The notes below the pieces were generated by a model that saw only the letters and a list, made by a program, of their open reading frames with translations, did not search any database and was not told the origin of the DNA. Shown here in pieces: positions 2,385 through 9,354 of a stretch of 64,000 nt of DNA (its first letter is position 1; every line of letters starts with the position of its first letter). The translations under genes and the position numbers were made by a program. Origin of the DNA: Kineococcus mangrovi (GTDB lineage: Bacteria > Actinomycetota > Actinomycetes > Actinomycetales > Kineococcaceae); the NCBI RefSeq assembly GCF_041320705.1, contig NZ_JBGGTQ010000011.1, positions 62,001-126,000 on the forward strand. Reading direction: 5' to 3'.

Positions 2385-2545
2385 CTCGGGGTCGTCCTCG
2401 TCGTCTGCGGTGCTCGGGCGCGGTGGGCGCGGTCGGTCCCCTGTCCGCCCCGTCGGCCCCCGGCCGAGCCGGGCCCGTGACCACCCGGTGGACCCGGCCG
2501 GGGACGGCCCCGGGGGGACTCGCCGGACCGGGTGGGCCCGGGACC

Positions 2546-2553
2546 GGGGGGGG
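2546..2553. repeat. G8 homopolymer next to a stop codon
   Basis: Eight consecutive G on the plus strand, a few bases beyond the stop of the carboxymuconolactone decarboxylase-like gene. It lies in the 170-bp spacer that separates that gene from the MFS start. No other signal was seen in the spacer. Confidence 0.8.
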
Positions 2554-2557
2554 ACGG

Positions 2558-2896
2558 TCAGTCGTCCTGCTCGACGATGTTCTTCAGCACCGTGGTCGCG
2601 CCCATGCCGTTGGGCCAGCCGGCGTAGAAGGCCAGCTGCAGCAGGGCCTCCTTCAGCTCCTCGTCGGTGACGCCGTTGCGCCGCGCGTAGGCGAGGTGGA
2701 ACTGCAGCTGCTCCATCTTCCCCAGGGCGGTGAGCGCGGAGATGGTGACGAGGCTGCGGTCGCGCTTGGACAGGCCCTCGCGCTCCCAGACCTCGTCGAA
2801 GAGGACCTTGTCGGTGTAGTGGACCATCCCGGGGGCGAAGTCGCCGAAGGCGTTCTGCCCGCCGGTCCAGCCGGTGCTCTCCTGCTGCTCAGCCAC
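2558..2896 (-). CDS. carboxymuconolactone decarboxylase-like protein
   Basis: All-helical protein of 112 residues of the carboxymuconolactone decarboxylase/AhpD-like superfamily. The conserved core SLVTISALTALGKMEQLQFH and the following AYARRNGVTDEELKE are typical. The AhpD-type redox CxxC is absent, so it belongs to the CMD branch rather than to peroxidase partners. The GTG at 2896 was chosen because GAGAGGAG lies just upstream; a longer frame to 2974 gives a non-conserved Arg/Pro-rich extension. Its promoter carries the composite motif at 2964-3006, with a plausible -35 TGGCAG (2969-2964), a 17-bp spacer and a weak -10 TTGCAT (2946-2941). The true reaction of such stand-alone proteins is mostly unknown; context suggests a role in lactone or electrophile metabolism. 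Confidence 0.88.
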   Translation of the reverse strand: MAEQQESTGWTGGQNAFGDFAPGMVHYTDKVLFDEVWEREGLSKRDRSLVTISALTALGKMEQLQFHLAYARRNGVTDEELKEALLQLAFYAGWPNGMGATTVLKNIVEQDD

Positions 2897-2963
2897 GCTG
2901 TCTCCTCTCGTCGGGGCGGGATCCCTCCCGCACGGGCACCATGCAACCGCGCTCCGGGCGGGT

Positions 2964-3006
2964 CTGCCAGGCACGGTCGTGAGGGGGTACCGCCAGGGCC
3001 TGGCAC
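2964..3006 (-). promoter_or_regulatory. composite operator/promoter motif, copy A
   Basis: Read on the minus strand toward the gene starting at 2896: GTGCCA (3006-3001), 9 nt, the palindrome GGTACC (2991-2986), 16 nt, then TGGCAG (2969-2964), which fits a -35 position. Copy B has the same 6-9-6-16-6 spacing and the same orientation relative to its target gene. This is a predicted binding site; the likely binder is one of the two MmyB-like regulators of the island, which is inference. Confidence 0.6.
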
Positions 3007-3043
3007 GCCCGGGCGGACCCCGGCCGCGCGGGTGCGCGCCGGG

Positions 3044-3631
3044 TCAGCCGCCGGCGTGGTCGTCGGCGGCCCAGCTGGCCAGGATGCCCAGCCGCTCGGC
3101 CGAGGCCGTGCCCGGCGCGGTCGTGCCGATGCGCAACGTCAGCGCCCGGTCACCGGCCGGCACGAGGTCCTCGCGGACCAGCTCCAGCTCCCCGACCAGG
3201 GGGTGGGCGACGACGACGCGCGGCCGGTGGGGGGCGCACCGCCGGGTGCTCGACCAGCGGGTCCGGAACGGGACGCTGGTGGTGGACAGCTGCCCGACGA
3301 GCCGGTGCAGGGTCCGGTCGTGCGGGTCGCGCGCGGCCGCGGTCCGCAGCCGGTGCACGTGCTCGTCGGCGACCCGGTCCCAGTCGGGGTAGAACGCCGT
3401 CGAGGCGTCCTCGTCCAGGAAGAGGAACCGCGCCAGGTTCGGTCGGTCGTGCCCGAGCACGGGGGCCAGCACCGCCCGCCCGAGCGGGTTGGTCGCGACC
3501 ACGTCCAGCCGGTCGGTGAGGACCGCCGCGGGGGTGTCGGTGACTGCCGCGAGGGCGGCCCGCAGACCGGGGCGCAGCCGGGCCGGGGGCGTCGTCCGGT
3601 CGGCGCGGCCGCCGACCCCGCGGGAGGTCAT
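3044..3631 (-). CDS. MmyB-like regulator without HTH domain (ligand-binding domain only)
   Basis: A protein of 195 residues that aligns with the C-terminal ligand-binding (PAS-like) half of XRE/MmyB-type regulators. Shared segments include LTDRLDVVATNPLGRAVL, NLARFLFLDEDA, FYPDW and VVAHPLVGELEL, with counterparts in the complete regulator at 7409-8266. The N-terminal XRE helix-turn-helix of about 90 residues is missing, and the 190 bp upstream contain no frame-shifted remnant of it. It is probably expressed: a -10-like TGGACT lies 6 nt before the ATG, with TGGCAC (part of operator copy B) 17 bp further up, so the message would be leaderless. It may be a ligand-sensing partner, an antagonist of the full regulator, or a decaying gene. 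Confidence 0.7.
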   Translation of the reverse strand: MTSRGVGGRADRTTPPARLRPGLRAALAAVTDTPAAVLTDRLDVVATNPLGRAVLAPVLGHDRPNLARFLFLDEDASTAFYPDWDRVADEHVHRLRTAAARDPHDRTLHRLVGQLSTTSVPFRTRWSSTRRCAPHRPRVVVAHPLVGELELVREDLVPAGDRALTLRIGTTAPGTASAERLGILASWAADDHAGG

Positions 3632-3660
3632 CACCCGAGTCCACGCCGGTGCCCGGACGT

Positions 3661-3703
3661 GTGCCAGTCCCCGCCGGTACCCCCGCAGCCCAGGGTCTGC
3701 CAC
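3661..3703. promoter_or_regulatory. composite operator/promoter motif, copy B (divergent)
   Basis: Plus-strand order: GTGCCA (3661-3666), 9 nt, GGTACC (3676-3681), 16 nt, TGCCAC (3698-3703), the same spacing as copy A. It sits between the HTH-less regulator (minus) and the quinone oxidoreductase (plus). On the plus strand TGCCAC would be a -35 with a poor -10 (TGCCCT, 3721-3726). On the minus strand TGGCAC would be a -35, 17 bp before TGGACT and the leaderless ATG at 3631. One site could therefore control both genes. Confidence 0.6.
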
Positions 3704-3764
3704 CGGCGTGCGGTCCGTGGTGCCCTGGACCGGACGCCCGCACCGCCCCCGCCCGTCACGGGTT

Positions 3765-3774
3765 CCCCCCCCCC
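3765..3774. repeat. C10 homopolymer in the leader of the quinone oxidoreductase gene
   Basis: Ten consecutive C lie about 50 bp before the ATG at 3825, in the presumed 5' leader downstream of operator copy B. Length changes would alter leader spacing but not a reading frame. Confidence 0.85.
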
Positions 3775-3824
3775 GCCGGCGGACCGGCCGGTGCCCTCGC
3801 CCGCCACCAGGGAGGCAGTACCCG

Positions 3825-4814
3825 ATGACCGACACGATGCGCGCCCTGATCGCCGGACGTGGACCCGACTGGGTCCTGGACGACGTGCCCGTCCCGCGGC
3901 CCGGACCCGGGCAGGTCCTCGTCCGCGTCCGGGCCGCGGCGGTGAACAACGCCGACCTGCCCCTGCTCGCCGCGGCCGACCCCACCGCGGGTGGGCACGG
4001 GGACGAGTTCGTCGCCGGGTACGAGTACGCCGGGGAGGTCGCCGCCGTCGGGGCGGGCGCCGGCCACTGGCGGGTGGGGGACCCGGTGATGGGTTCGATC
4101 CCGTCGTCGTTCGCCGAGTTCGTCGTCGCCGACCACCGGTTCGTCGTGCCCCGCCCGGCGGGGCTCGCCCCGCACGAGGCCGTCGCGCTGCCGACCGGTC
4201 TGCTGACCGAGCACGGCGCTCTCACCGTCGCCGGGTTCCGGCCCGGCCAGAGCGTGCTGGTCACGGGCGCCTCGACCGGCATCGGGCTCGTCGGCGTCCA
4301 GGTCGCGAAGGCGCTCGGCGCCTCCCGGGTGATCGGCACGACCCGCAGCCCGGACAAGCGGGACCTGCTCACCTCGGTCGGCGTCGACGACGTCGTCGTC
4401 ACCGGCGAGCAGGACCTGACCGGGGCGGTGCTCACCGCCACCGGCGGCGAGGGGGTCGACGTCGTCCTCGACCACGTCGGCGGCCGGGTCTTCGCCGACT
4501 GCCTGCCCGCCACCCGGCACGACGGGCACGTGGTGAACATCGGCCGGCTCGCGGGCCCGGCCTCCACCGTCGACCTCGACGCGCTGTCCTACCGGCACCT
4601 GAGCGTCCACGGCGTCTCCTTCGGCTTCACCCGGGCCCAGGAGACCGCGGGCGTCGTCGCCGGCCTGCTGCCCGAGGTCCTGCCCGCCGTCGAGCGCGGG
4701 GCGGTCCGTCCCGTCCTGGACCGGGTCTTCCCGGTGGACCGGGCGGGGGAGATCGCCGCCCACGTGCGCTCGGGGCGGGGAACGGGCAAGGTCGTCGTCG
4801 CGCTCGACGGCTGA
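3825..4814 (+). CDS. zinc-independent MDR family quinone oxidoreductase
   Basis: NADPH:quinone oxidoreductase-type medium-chain dehydrogenase/reductase of 329 residues. The N-terminal GroES-like domain includes NADLPLLA and the segment GYEYAGEVAAVG. The Rossmann domain begins at VLVTGASTGIGLVGVQVAKA (about residues 145-165) and continues to VVLDHVGG. The structural and catalytic zinc ligands of alcohol dehydrogenases are absent, as in quinone reductases. The ATG at 3825 has GGGAGGCAG about 10 nt upstream. It is divergent from the HTH-less regulator and shares operator copy B with it. The likely role is reduction of quinones or alpha,beta-unsaturated carbonyls. Many family members exist, so the substrate is uncertain. 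Confidence 0.9.
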   Translation: MTDTMRALIAGRGPDWVLDDVPVPRPGPGQVLVRVRAAAVNNADLPLLAAADPTAGGHGDEFVAGYEYAGEVAAVGAGAGHWRVGDPVMGSIPSSFAEFVVADHRFVVPRPAGLAPHEAVALPTGLLTEHGALTVAGFRPGQSVLVTGASTGIGLVGVQVAKALGASRVIGTTRSPDKRDLLTSVGVDDVVVTGEQDLTGAVLTATGGEGVDVVLDHVGGRVFADCLPATRHDGHVVNIGRLAGPASTVDLDALSYRHLSVHGVSFGFTRAQETAGVVAGLLPEVLPAVERGAVRPVLDRVFPVDRAGEIAAHVRSGRGTGKVVVALDG

Positions 4815-4846
4815 CCCGGCCGTCGTCGGGGGCCCGCGCCAGAGGT

Positions 4847-4890
4847 GGTACCAGCAGGGTCTGCCACCGCCCCGGTGACCGACCTAGCGT
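4847..4890 (+). promoter_or_regulatory. operator motif copy C plus promoter of aldo/keto reductase
   Basis: GGTACC (4847-4852), 9 nt, TGCCAC (4862-4867), then a 17-bp spacer and a good -10, TAGCGT (4885-4890). The stretch CAGGGTCTGCCACC is identical, 14 of 14 bases, to that beside copy B (3691-3704). The outer GTGCCA element is lacking. The site would control the aldo/keto reductase gene that starts at 4936. Confidence 0.65.
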
Positions 4891-4935
4891 GGAACCGCAC
4901 GCGAACGGACGAGCGAAGGAAGAACGAGGAGCGGC

Positions 4936-5919
4936 ATGGAGCACGCGCACCTGGGACGCTCGGGCCTGCTGGTGTCCAGGATCGCCCTGGGCACCATGAA
5001 CTTCGGCGACGCCACGGGCGAGGCCGAGGCCCACGAGATCCTCGACGCCGCCCTCGAGGCCGGCGTCAACCACATCGACACGGCCGACGTCTACGGCGGC
5101 CCGCAGACCCCGGACATGGTCCAGGGGTACGGGACCTCCGAGGAGATCGTCGGCGACTGGTTCGCCCGCACCGGCCGCCGCGACGAGGTCGTGCTGGCCA
5201 CGAAGGTCTACCAGCCGATGGGGACGGGGCCGAACGACCGCCACCTGTCGGCGTACCACCTCAAGCGCGCCTGCGAGGCGAGCCTGCGGCGGCTGCGGAC
5301 CGACCACATCGACCTGTACCAGATGCACCACGTCGACCGGGACACCCCGTTCGAGGAGATCTGGCAGGCGATGGACCAGCTCGTGACCGAGGGCAAGATC
5401 ACCTACGTCGGCTCGTCCAACTTCGCCGGCTGGGACGTCGCCACGGCCCAGCTGACGGCGAGGTCGCGGAACTCCCTCGGCCTGGTCTCGGAGCAGAGTT
5501 TCTACAACCTCGCGAACCGCGCGGTCGAGCAGGAGATGATCCCTGCGCTGCAGCACTTCGGGGTCGGGCTGCTGCCGTGGAGCCCTCTGTTCCGCGGCGT
5601 CCTCGCCGGCCGCGACCCGGGCCCGGACGCGGTGCGCCGAGGTTCCGACGGCGCGCAGGCCGAGCGCCGGCGCCTCGCGGACCAACTCGCCCGCTACGAG
5701 GAGTTGTGCCACCGTCTGGGGTACGCCCCCGCGCAGGTCGCGCAGGCGTGGTTGCTGCACCAGCCCGCCGTCTCGGCGGTCATCGCCGGGCCCCGGACGA
5801 CCGCCCAGCTGCGGTCCTCGATCTCCGCGCTGGAGATCGAGCTGGACACCGCGACGCTGGCCGAGCTCGACCGCATCTGGCCCGGTCCCGGCACCGCGCC
5901 GCAGTCCTACGCCTGGTGA
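4936..5919 (+). CDS. aldo/keto reductase (AKR, 327 aa)
   Basis: NADPH-dependent aldo/keto reductase of the group often called general stress or potassium-channel-beta-like AKRs. The catalytic tetrad is visible: Asp and Tyr in HIDTADVYGG, Lys in VVLATKVYQ, His in LYQMHHVD. The start HLGRSGLLVSRIALGTMNFG and the C-terminal cofactor segment (SAVIAGPRTTAQL) are typical, and the length is full. The ATG at 4936 follows GAGGAG. Transcription probably begins near 4897 from the promoter that carries operator copy C. It heads a plus-strand set with the cupin and the second AKR. It presumably reduces aldehydes or ketones formed under electrophile stress; the substrate is not deducible. Confidence 0.93.
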   Translation: MEHAHLGRSGLLVSRIALGTMNFGDATGEAEAHEILDAALEAGVNHIDTADVYGGPQTPDMVQGYGTSEEIVGDWFARTGRRDEVVLATKVYQPMGTGPNDRHLSAYHLKRACEASLRRLRTDHIDLYQMHHVDRDTPFEEIWQAMDQLVTEGKITYVGSSNFAGWDVATAQLTARSRNSLGLVSEQSFYNLANRAVEQEMIPALQHFGVGLLPWSPLFRGVLAGRDPGPDAVRRGSDGAQAERRRLADQLARYEELCHRLGYAPAQVAQAWLLHQPAVSAVIAGPRTTAQLRSSISALEIELDTATLAELDRIWPGPGTAPQSYAW

Positions 5920-5976
5920 CGCCGCGCGCCCGTGACCTCGCGAGAGACCGACCGGTGACCGACCGCGGGGCACCGG

Positions 5977-6020
5977 CAGAACACGCAGGAAACTCAGGAA
6001 ACTCAGAACACGCAGGAAAC
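5977..6020 (+). repeat. 17-bp direct repeat in the cupin leader
   Basis: CAGAACACGCAGGAAAC occurs at 5977-5993 and again at 6004-6020, with TCAGGAAACT between the copies. The region has a strikingly lower GC content than its surroundings and holds several AGGA elements before the true ribosome binding site (TGGAGGAACG) of the cupin gene. It could be an mRNA-level control element or a relic of duplication. Confidence 0.85.
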
Positions 6021-6031
6021 CTGGAGGAACG

Positions 6032-6466
6032 ATGACGAGCCCCGACGACTTCGACCAACCCTTCCCGACCGGCGAGGCCAACGACGCCTTCGCGCAGTAC
6101 TTCACCGGGCAGAGCTACCTCGCCCCCCTCGCCGGGGGGAGCGTCCCGGTCTCGAACGTCTCCTTCGAGCCGGGGTGCCGCAACAACTGGCACGTCCACC
6201 ACGGCAGCGCCGGTGGCGGCGACCAGGTCCTGCTGTGCACCGCCGGCTCGGGCTGGTACCAGGCCGAGGGCGAGGAGCCGGTGAGCATGGTCGCGGGGTC
6301 GGTGGTCCGCGTCCCGGCCGGTACGAAGCACTGGCACGGCGCGAAGGCCGACGCGTGGTTCAGCCACCTGGCCTTCATCACGCCCGGGGAGGGCGTCAGC
6401 AACGAGTGGCTGGAACCGGTCACCGACGAGGTGTACGGCCAGCTGTCCACGAACGACGGGAAGTGA
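6032..6466 (+). CDS. cupin domain protein
   Basis: Single-domain cupin of 144 residues. The two metal-binding cupin motifs are visible: NNWHVHHG near residue 51 and AGTKHWHGA near residue 97, with the glycine-rich loop between them. It resembles the stand-alone cupins found beside carboxymuconolactone decarboxylase-like proteins and aldo/keto reductases; such cupins have unknown substrates. The ATG at 6032 is preceded by TGGAGGAACG. It lies 112 bp after the first AKR, with an unusual direct repeat in its leader, and 11 bp before the second AKR, so the last two are surely co-transcribed. Confidence 0.88.
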   Translation: MTSPDDFDQPFPTGEANDAFAQYFTGQSYLAPLAGGSVPVSNVSFEPGCRNNWHVHHGSAGGGDQVLLCTAGSGWYQAEGEEPVSMVAGSVVRVPAGTKHWHGAKADAWFSHLAFITPGEGVSNEWLEPVTDEVYGQLSTNDGK

Positions 6467-6477
6467 AGAGGAACACC

Positions 6478-7335
6478 ATGAGCACCCTGGACGAGACCTA
6501 CACCCTGACCGGCGGCGTCGAGATCCCCAAGCTGGGGCTGGGCACCTGGTTCATCGACGACGACCAGGCGGCCGACGCCGTGAAGGCCGCGATCGAGGTC
6601 GGGTACCGCAACATCGACACCGCCCAGGCGTACGGCAACGAGCGCGGTGTCGGTGAGGGCGTGCGCACCTCCGGCGTGCCGCGCGCGGACCTGTTCGTGT
6701 CCACGAAGCTGGCCGCCGAGATCAAGGACTACGATGGCGCGGTCGCGGCCATCGACGGGTCCCTGTCGACGATGGGCCTGGACTACGTCGACCTCCTGCT
6801 CATCCACGCCCCGCAGCCGTGGGACGACTTCCGCGGCGGGGACTACTCCGAGGGCAACCGCCAGGCGTGGAAGGCCATGGAGGAGGCCCTGCAGGCCGGC
6901 AAGGTGCGGGCCATCGGCGTGTCCAACTTCCTCCAGGAGGACCTGGACGACCTGCTGGAGACGGCCACCGTCACCCCGCACGTGAACCAGGTGCTGGTTC
7001 ACGCCGGCAACACCCCCACGGAACTGCTGGCCTACTGCGAGAGCAAGGGCATCCGCGTCGAGGCGTACTCCCCGATCGCCCACGGCGAGATCCTCGACAA
7101 CGCCGAGGTCAAGGCGATGGCCGAGACGTACGACGTCTCGGTCCCGCAGCTGTGCATCCGCTACGTGGTGCAGCTCGGCACCGTGGCCCTGCCGAAGACG
7201 GCGAACCCCGACCACATGCGCTCCAACGCGCAGGTCGACTTCGTCATCTCCGAGGACGACATGGCCACGCTGCGGGACCTGCACGACCGCGACTACGGCG
7301 ACAGCTCCGCCTTCCCGGTCTACAGCGGCAAGTGA
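6478..7335 (+). CDS. aldo/keto reductase, 2,5-diketo-D-gluconate reductase type
   Basis: AKR of 285 residues of the AKR5/DkgA-like group, which reduces diketogluconate, methylglyoxal and other small dicarbonyls. The opening GGVEIPKLGLGTWFIDDD is typical. The tetrad is present: NIDTAQAYGNE (Asp, Tyr), STKLAAE (Lys) and LLIHAPQP (His), and GVSNF is also seen. The ATG at 6478 has AAGAGGAAC just upstream and follows the cupin stop by 11 bp. A strong hairpin terminator follows. Similar clusters in other bacteria (DkgA with alcohol dehydrogenase, cupin and CMD proteins) respond to reactive aldehydes; that role here is inferred. Confidence 0.9.
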   Translation: MSTLDETYTLTGGVEIPKLGLGTWFIDDDQAADAVKAAIEVGYRNIDTAQAYGNERGVGEGVRTSGVPRADLFVSTKLAAEIKDYDGAVAAIDGSLSTMGLDYVDLLLIHAPQPWDDFRGGDYSEGNRQAWKAMEEALQAGKVRAIGVSNFLQEDLDDLLETATVTPHVNQVLVHAGNTPTELLAYCESKGIRVEAYSPIAHGEILDNAEVKAMAETYDVSVPQLCIRYVVQLGTVALPKTANPDHMRSNAQVDFVISEDDMATLRDLHDRDYGDSSAFPVYSGK

Positions 7336-7341
7336 GGCACC

Positions 7342-7385
7342 GTGCCCCCGCCGACCGGGCCCTCGCGGCCCGGTGGCGGGGGCAC
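7342..7385. terminator. bidirectional hairpin terminator
   Basis: An 11-bp outer stem (GTGCCCCCGCC with GGCGGGGGCAC) and an 8-bp inner stem (ACCGGGCC with GGCCCGGT) close on a CTCGC loop, with a single unpaired G between the stems. It lies between two convergent genes. There is no clear U tract, as is usual at this GC content. Confidence 0.8.
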
Positions 7386-7408
7386 CCGTGCGTCCGCCCC
7401 GCCCGGGG

Positions 7409-8266
7409 TCAGCCGCTGAGCGCCGCCGCGCCCTGGACCTGCCCGGCCAGCCGGCGCATCCGCTCCTGCGACGGGGTGTTCGGCTCGGCGCTGTAGGCGG
7501 TGAGCGTCAGCCCCCGCTGGGCGGGCATCGCCAGGGCGTCCATGCTCAGGTGCAGGTCGCCGACCACCGGGTGCCGGAAGTCCTTGTAGCCGCTCTGGTG
7601 CAGCCGCACGTCGTGCCTGGCCCACAGGGTCCGGAACTCCTCGGACCTGGTGGACAGCTCGCCCACCAGCTCGGTCAGCCCCTCGTCCGAGGGGTCGCGG
7701 CCGGCCTCGGTGTGCAGCAGCGAGACGGCGACCTCGGCGGCCTCCTGCCAGTTCGGGTAGAGCCGGTGCGCCCCCTCGTCGAGGAAGCAGAACCGCGCCA
7801 GGTTCACCGGGCGCGCGGGGTGCGCGAACGCCTCCGAGTAGAGCACCCGGCCCAGGGGGTTGATCGCCAGCACGTCGAGGCGGCCGTTGCGGATGAACGC
7901 CGGGATGCCGGTCATGCCGTCCAGCAACCGCTGCAGGCTGTCCGAGACCTGCCCGCGTCTCCGGCGCGCCGACCTCGGCGCCGGTCCCGCGGCGCGGGCG
8001 AGGTCGAACAGGTGCTCGCGCTCGGCGTCGTCCAGCTGGAGCGCGCGCACGAGGGCGTCGAGGATCCCGTCCGAGACCCCGGCCAGGTCACCGCGCTCCA
8101 GCCTCGTGTAGTACTCCACGCTGACGCCGGCGAGCAGCGCGACCTCCTCGCGGCGCAGGCCCGGCACGCGGCGGGTCCCCCCGAAGTCCGGCAGGCCGGT
8201 GTCCTCCGGGCGCAGCTTGGCCCGGCGGGTCATGAAGAACTCCCGCGTCTCGGCTCGGTTTTCCAC
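7409..8266 (-). CDS. XRE family regulator with MmyB-like ligand-binding domain
   Basis: Complete MmyB-like transcription factor of 285 residues. The N-terminal XRE helix-turn-helix is recognisable from RRVPGLRREEVALLAGVS to YYTRLERGDL. The C-terminal PAS-like ligand domain includes RLDVLAINPLGRVLYS, NLARFCFLDEG, YPNWQEAA and PVVGDLHLSMDAL. The GTG at 8266 fits the usual family N-terminus (ENRAETREF) and gives a leaderless architecture: TACCGT lies 6 nt before it. Characterised relatives bind fatty-acid-like ligands and control nearby oxidoreductase or antibiotic genes. It is the best candidate to bind the GGTACC composite motifs at 2964-4867, which is inference. Confidence 0.9.
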   Translation of the reverse strand: MENRAETREFFMTRRAKLRPEDTGLPDFGGTRRVPGLRREEVALLAGVSVEYYTRLERGDLAGVSDGILDALVRALQLDDAEREHLFDLARAAGPAPRSARRRRGQVSDSLQRLLDGMTGIPAFIRNGRLDVLAINPLGRVLYSEAFAHPARPVNLARFCFLDEGAHRLYPNWQEAAEVAVSLLHTEAGRDPSDEGLTELVGELSTRSEEFRTLWARHDVRLHQSGYKDFRHPVVGDLHLSMDALAMPAQRGLTLTAYSAEPNTPSQERMRRLAGQVQGAAALSG

Positions 8267-8313
8267 GCTCCGACGGTAGTTCACCCGGACCGGCCGGACC
8301 GTCTCGGCCCGGG

Positions 8314-9354
8314 TCAGCGCGGCAGCTCGACGGCGCGCACGAGGACGCTGCCGGGTTCGCGGTCCACCAGTCCGACGAGGAACTCCGTCCACAGCGCCGC
8401 GAGCACCCGCTGGGTCAGCGCGCCGAGGGAGAACTCGTCGCCGGCCTCGACCCGCAGCCCCGGCCCCTCCCGGCGCACCGCGCCACCGGAGACGGGCCCG
8501 GCGGCGAGGGCCACCTCGGCGGCCCGGTCGAGGCGGTCGGTCAGGGTGCCGGGCACCACGGGCGGGGGTTCGACGCCGCCGGCGCCCAGGGCCGCCCGCA
8601 CGGCCTCGACGTGGCCCAGGCGGAACCAGTCGCCCGCCCCGGAGCGCACGAGGGAACGGGCCCCGGGGCCGGGGTCGTCCAGGGGCAGCACGAGGTCGGC
8701 CAGGCCGCGGAACAGGGCGGCGGGCACGCCCTCGGCCTTGCCCTTGACGAGGTCGGCGGCAGCGGCCAGCTCGTCGACGACGGCGCGCGCGGTCACCGAC
8801 AGCTCCCGCCCGGAGGCGTCGAGGCTGCCGCGCAGGTCGTCGAGGGCGTCGAGCCCGGCGGCGCCGAGGGCGAAGTCCGTCTGCCCGGCCCGCCACGGCC
8901 GGCCGGCGGTGTCGGTGACGACGACGCCGACGACGGCGCCGGTCAGCTCGTGCAGCCGGGCCCGCAGGGCGCGGGCCGCGGCGTCGGGGTCGTGCGGCAG
9001 CGTCAGGACGACCTCACCCTCGACGTTGGACGCGTCGACCCCGGCGGCCGCCATGACGGGACCGGCGGCCGACTCCACGATGCGCGCCGTGCCGGTGGGG
9101 GTGCGCCGGGCGGCGACGAGGCGCCGCGACTCGCGCAGCACGACGTCGTCGCGGTCGGTGGCGGCCGCGGTGAGCCCGTCGGCCTTGGACACGACCTTGC
9201 TGGAGACCGCGATGACGTCGCCGTCGCTGAGGGAGGCGCGCTGGGCGTGCAGGGCGTCGACCACGAGGGCGGCGACGTCGTCGCCGGCGTGGACCTCCCC
9301 GATGCCGGTGAGCCCCACGACCTGCAGGTGGCCGGGGGAGTGGTGGGCGCTCAC
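8314..9354 (-). CDS. fbiB: coenzyme F420-0:L-glutamate ligase, no nitroreductase domain
   Basis: Adds gamma-linked glutamates to F420-0. The CofE-type ligase domain covers about residues 10-245: GIGEVHAGDDVAAL, GDVIAVSSKVVSKADG, and VVVTDTAGRPWRAGQTDFALG with the metal-binding part. The GTG at 9354 overlaps the fbiA stop by 4 nt (GTGA). Mycobacterial FbiB is about 448 residues with a C-terminal FMN nitroreductase domain that reduces dehydro-F420-0. This protein has 346 residues, and its last 100 do not look like a nitroreductase, so that step must be done by another protein. The neighbour fbiA makes the pathway call firm. Confidence 0.92.
   Translation of the reverse strand: MSAHHSPGHLQVVGLTGIGEVHAGDDVAALVVDALHAQRASLSDGDVIAVSSKVVSKADGLTAAATDRDDVVLRESRRLVAARRTPTGTARIVESAAGPVMAAAGVDASNVEGEVVLTLPHDPDAAARALRARLHELTGAVVGVVVTDTAGRPWRAGQTDFALGAAGLDALDDLRGSLDASGRELSVTARAVVDELAAAADLVKGKAEGVPAALFRGLADLVLPLDDPGPGARSLVRSGAGDWFRLGHVEAVRAALGAGGVEPPPVVPGTLTDRLDRAAEVALAAGPVSGGAVRREGPGLRVEAGDEFSLGALTQRVLAALWTEFLVGLVDREPGSVLVRAVELPR

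Follow-up and report, generated by a model that had tools for sequence, protein, structure and literature searches.

Three intergenic sites of an oxidoreductase island match the predicted operator of a clade of MmyB-like regulators

The window, that is, the whole 64-kb stretch of DNA analysed here, contains an island of oxidoreductase genes. It includes a carboxymuconolactone decarboxylase-family protein (CMD; 2558..2896, minus strand, PF02627), a zinc-type alcohol dehydrogenase/quinone oxidoreductase (ADH; 3825..4814, plus, PF00107 and PF08240, with TIGR02824 below the cut-off), aldo/keto reductase 1 (AKR1; 4936..5919, plus, PF00248), a cupin (6032..6466, plus, PF07883) and aldo/keto reductase 2 (AKR2; 6478..7335, plus, PF00248). 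An SDR, a cyclophilin-like protein and an MFS transporter also belong to it. Short tandem repeats, gtgcggg and ggt/gct runs, lie at 660-710 and 1130-1170, near the starts of the SDR and MFS genes.

Two genes of the island encode related regulatory proteins. The first (7409..8266, minus; PF13560, PF01381, PF17765) has the domains of the MmyB-like (MLTR) family, an XRE HTH (HTH_31, 2e-9; HTH_3, 3.3e-6) and an MLTR_LBD (1.7e-57). It also matches the solved MltR structure 3pxp_A (E 2.7e-10), aligned from profile position 54 on. The second (3044..3631, minus) consists of the ligand-binding domain of the family (PF17765, 2.4e-42) but does not have the HTH of MmyB-like regulators. None was found by domain search, and no in-frame HTH lies upstream either.

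The pattern GGTACC-N9-TGSCAC has three matches in the window, all inside the island, compared with 0 in 100 dinucleotide shuffles. Copy A (GGTACCGCCAGGGCCTGGCAC; 2986..3006, plus) lies between the CMD gene and the HTH-less gene. Copy B (GGTACCGGCGGGGACTGGCAC; 3661..3681, minus) is 50 nt before the ATG of the HTH-less gene at 3631 and upstream of the divergent ADH gene. Copy C (GGTACCAGCAGGGTCTGCCAC; 4847..4867, plus) reads GGTACC-9-TGCCAC, then 17 nt, then TAGCGT. An earlier note on this DNA had described a composite motif shared beyond chance by three promoters, with three parts at A and B. The letters and spacings that it gave for the copies are all present, and the element common to them does exceed chance, with three copies in the window. 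More precisely, A (2964-3006, minus) and B (3661-3703, plus) fit GTGCCA-9-GGTACC-16-TGSCAS exactly; this composite has two matches at up to two mismatches, with a shuffle mean of 0.02. The note was also right that B and C (plus strand of both) share identical bases, CAGGGTCTGCCACCG, although these number 15 and not 14. The third element at B (TGCCAC, 3698..3703, plus) falls within this common stretch, and the one at A (TGGCAG, 2964..2969, minus) is unsupported as part of an operator. TGSCAS occurs at the 16-nt place in 0 of 72 aligned homologous promoters, and the three-part composite operator was rejected. One 21-bp element, GGTACC-N9-TGSCAC, is the simpler description of A, B and C.

We aligned ten close regulators and collected loci with homologous regulators (53-63% identity). 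The best 80 of them, from Arthrobacter, Microbacterium, Streptomyces, Rhodococcus, Nocardiopsis, Amycolatopsis and others, were retained. A matrix was trained on the promoters of these 80 MmyB-like (XRE + MLTR_LBD) homologs, none of them from the window. The promoters carry GGTACTGGCAGGGNCTCCCT with more than 8 bits in 73 of the 80 loci, and in 65 its first base lies 49-53 nt upstream of the regulator start. Unseeded motif discovery in the homologous promoters gave the same consensus. Conservation scores were 1165 for the promoters and 524 for far-upstream DNA; a coding-DNA control reached 2043, since homologous coding DNA necessarily scores higher.

In the window, the three highest scores of this matrix fall on C (16.1 bits), A (15.2) and B (10.4), in that order, followed by a fourth site at 10.0. 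The top score in Markov-shuffled windows averages 10.8, the largest being 17.1, and copy B alone is no better than chance. The strength of the result thus lies in the position of all three copies in intergenic gaps of one island, and in no single score.

A further block, GGGAGT, is conserved in the homologs (L063-L142) some 19 to 14 nt ahead of the operator. This hints at another half-site, or at a cooperative dimer. This left arm is near background and is not present at A, B or C. Longer palindromes, for example GAGGGGTGTACC-GGT-GGTACACCCCTC, occur upstream of the CTCCC element in three homologs of the genus with A54 (L060, L041, L040).

The element keeps a fixed place in the promoter. In 67 of 72 homologous promoters (8 of the 80 were left out of the aligned set), a TANNNT -10 box lies at a fixed distance from it. 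These promoters have a good -10 and no good -35 (CTCCCT). If the transcripts are leaderless and begin at the start codon, the operator would span about -50 to -29, with the dyad near -43. In the window, TAGCGT (4885..4890, plus) follows C at 38 nt from its first base, the distance found in most homologs. Toward the HTH-less gene, B has the conserved distance to the start and, where the homologs have their -10, a weak candidate, TGGACT (3638..3643, minus), 6 nt upstream of the ATG (3631). For A, and for B read toward the ADH gene, the conserved distance does not lead to a -10. Judged against the homologs, the full promoter geometry appears to be present at C only. Among the -10 boxes put forward earlier, TAGCGT at C stands and those for A and B are weak. 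The proposal that B, read in reverse, repeats the layout of C for the HTH-less gene agrees with the data; its position matches the autoregulatory site of the homologs. A simple sigma-70 scan of 2500-8400 found no promoter.

A site upstream of a good -10, and over a -35 region without a good -35 hexamer, makes activation the most likely mode of action, and activation beside RNA polymerase would fit the geometry of the homologs. Repression is a possible though clearly less probable reading. The regulator encoded at 7409-8266 would then sit on the -35 region and block RNA polymerase, to be released by an electrophile-like ligand. The overlap of the site with the -35 region speaks for this, and XRE proteins are often repressors, MsrR being an example in the available portion of PMC7532634. 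Nevertheless, a good -10 with no good -35 in the homologous promoters is what is expected of activator-dependent ones, and MmyB is described as an activator in the accessible text of PMC10717218 and PMC3406030.

The identity of the binding protein was approached by covariation between regulators and promoters. The covariation and tree tests used 76 regulator-promoter pairs; the other four of the 80 promoters had scores under 7 bits. The six strongest of 3408 residue-by-column pairs all involve residues 51 and 54, and so do the six strongest when the set is reduced to 47 proteins of less than 75% identity. In a predicted model (mean pLDDT 80) both lie in helix 50-57, which follows helix 39-46 and is the recognition helix. 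GG at columns 11-12 accompanies E51 in 29 of 38 cases and D51 in 1 of 38. Likewise, G0/C14 occurs with T, I or V at residue 54 in 60 of 62, and T0/A14 with A or S in 11 of 14. Because columns 0 and 14 both follow residue 54, the site is probably a dyad (pseudo-palindrome).

The HTH columns were excluded from the tree on which same-branch changes were counted; this removes shared ancestry only in part. Residue 54 and column 0 changed together 5 times compared with 0.28 expected (p 5e-5, the floor of the test), and residue 54 and column 14 did so 4 times compared with 0.33. For residue 51 and columns 11-12, the association is weaker once tree-corrected (3 compared with 0.64 expected, p 0.018). 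The regulator of the window has E51 and T54. A, B and C all carry G0, GG11-12 and C14, the base class predicted for these residues, and 20 of 25 E51/T54 homologs show this full class.

It is unlikely that another XRE paralog or an unrelated factor binds A, B and C, the nearness of 7409-8266 being a coincidence. The own genome does encode further MLTR-type proteins, at 36-44% identity, and the regulator's own promoter has no site. Its best matrix score is -11.0, unlike its homologs, and a -10-like TACCGT (8273..8278, minus) lies 6 nt before the GTG. By this comparison, the regulator appears to have lost the operator that its homologs carry. However, the own-genome paralogs listed are distant from the clade in whose promoters the element occurs. 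It is the recognition helix of that clade that the covariation singles out, and 7409-8266 has the residues expected. The homolog matrix, the fixed promoter place and this covariation together argue for the proposed link of the element to the MmyB-like clade of 7409-8266.

The occurrence of the element was then counted in the own genome (4.36 Mb, high-GC) and across the class. The window pattern GGTACCNGCNGGGNCTGSCAC has 3 own-genome sites at 0-1 mismatch, which are A, B and C, and 4 more at 2 mismatches. With up to 3 mismatches there are 64 sites compared with 103 for the reversed control, so there is no dispersed excess in the own genome. The homolog consensus gives 148 sites compared with 332; ten own-genome sites, copy B among them, differ from it at 2 positions. 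With both counts below their reversed controls, a dispersed regulon was rejected. Beside 27 off-target own-genome loci we found one weak ADH match and no HTH or LBD match.

Among 394 genomes of the class, GGTACCNNCNGGGNCTGSCAC has 5 exact matches, 3 of them A, B and C. The other two (L031, L032) have none of the queried families alongside. An exact search with the homolog consensus in the same genomes gave 12 matches compared with 11 for the reversed control, so the consensus is enriched by location only, not by number. Of the 11 matches outside the window, 4 are at starts of MLTR regulators (one, L180, is the same place as training locus L063 and is not independent), 3 are beside AKR, SDR or AKR + cupin, and 4 are beside no queried family. 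Chance, or duplication of a promoter segment without present function, would explain the 15 identical bases common to B and C, yet it is very improbable given 0 of 100 shuffles and shared letters that are those kept across many genera in non-homologous promoters.

The gene families of the island recur beside the element in the best 80 loci. The ORFs divergent to the homologous regulators (69 of 74 tallied; L063, L065, L068, L101 and L103 left out) include 27 zinc ADH and 11 AKR, together with 4 CMD, 4 MFS, 2 SDR, 1 cyclophilin-like and 1 cupin. These loci hold 32 further distinct sites, compared with 5-11 matches in three Markov shuffles. Beside the stronger further sites, 34 ORFs were searched (34 of 40 references, with one duplicate). 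They comprise MFS, AKR, ADH, SDR, CMD, cupin and cyclophilin-like families, as well as unrelated ones. Because the searched ORFs were chosen by a mechanical rule, not all of them are genes. At two Actinacidiphila loci (L097, L117), the site stands between the regulator gene and CMD-cupin-AKR2; their cupins share 84-87% identity with the cupin of the window, their AKR2 proteins 76-79% with its AKR2. In Microbacterium pullorum (L094), it lies between a CMD gene (84% identical to the window's) and cupin-AKR2. These layouts imply that genes forming a single operon elsewhere are split in the window into two parts, guarded by A and C.

The HTH-less gene is a paralog of the regulator gene, and it has the operator-like site B in autoregulatory position. 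It is an odd wiring that this gene, and not the regulator gene, has the site, and the HTH-less partner gene is itself unusual. Its reading frame is intact, with 32 of the 44 invariant ligand-domain positions retained. In the W-x-x-H-x-V-x-x-H stretch the W is kept and H218, V220 and H223 are lost, as in all six HTH-less proteins of the genus that were compared. At six genus loci (L154-L159, from four genomes) an HTH-less MLTR_LBD gene is paired with a full-length MLTR gene. Immediately ahead of the start of each of the six HTH-less genes stand a palindromic CCCTGNCAGG element and a TANNNT-like -10. An exact pattern made from the CCCTGNCAGG sites occurs at 4 places in 11 genus genomes, all at HTH-less genes, with 0 for the control. 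HTH-less genes in the best 80 homolog loci amount to two partial matches only. Tentatively, and with considerable doubt, the HTH-less protein could sense a ligand and, by forming a dimer with the full-length regulator, turn it off or adjust its activity. Its gene would have taken over the lost autoregulatory operator, giving a feedback loop.

Overall, the motif is very probably a real and conserved operator of an MmyB-like regulator clade, as the homologous promoters indicate. The best explanation, which we hold with good confidence, is that A, B and C are predicted operators of the regulator 7409-8266 and that it activates the adjoining genes. A dimer would bind a pseudo-palindrome of roughly 17-22 bp, centred on column 7 with the halves GGTAC and GGGNCT, and E51 and T54 of the recognition helix would read the operator bases. 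At C and the homologous promoters, the ligand-bound regulator most likely activates, its centre lying near -43 if the start corresponds to the start codon of the homologs. The predicted targets are AKR1-cupin-AKR2 through C, the HTH-less ligand-domain gene and perhaps the divergent ADH gene through B, and probably the CMD gene through A.

MmyB-like regulators are numerous in actinomycetes, with more than 1000 sequences in 2012 according to the available part of PMC3406030. In the portions covered of the literature, including PMC3406030, PMC7532634, PMC12565409 and PMC10717218, we found no defined operator for this clade. Among the publications listed for the motif itself, all concern unrelated subjects and none bacterial regulation, as judged by title and abstract. 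For a family that is widespread and little studied, this would supply a predicted site of binding and a simple rule for protein-DNA recognition. With a predicted operator, a fixed promoter geometry and a two-residue rule, regulons of the family may become predictable from sequence. The clade is linked to redox and detoxification enzymes that recur as a set, and not to antibiotic genes alone.

The phage lambda CI protein at PRM is an activator with the XRE fold, centred near -42 and adjoining a good -10. Its likeness to 7409-8266 is limited to the HTH and to the activator geometry, which for the latter is a predicted one. The domain order of 7409-8266, an XRE HTH followed by a PAS-like ligand domain, is that of MltR (Caur_2278, PDB 3pxp) in the MLTR_LBD family PF17765. 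For MltR, the portions of the literature covered yielded no DNA site, whereas for 7409-8266 an operator and a two-residue rule are proposed. Streptomyces coelicolor MmyB, an activator of this family, is described as binding pseudo-palindromic B-boxes (PMC3406030); the likeness is by description only, from the accessible part of that paper. The targets of MmyB are antibiotic genes, whereas those predicted for 7409-8266 are redox enzymes. SCO6676 (PMC3406030) and SLCG_7083 (PMC10717218), as the available text presents them, are MmyB-like proteins with the PAS-like domain alone, HTH-less like 3044-3631. The gene at 3044-3631 adjoins the regulon of its full-length paralog and bears the predicted operator of that paralog, which is stated here for 3044-3631 alone. 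If the feedback reading is true, an HTH-less partner together with the 51/54 rule would make a bacterial counterpart to inhibitory partners deficient in DNA binding.
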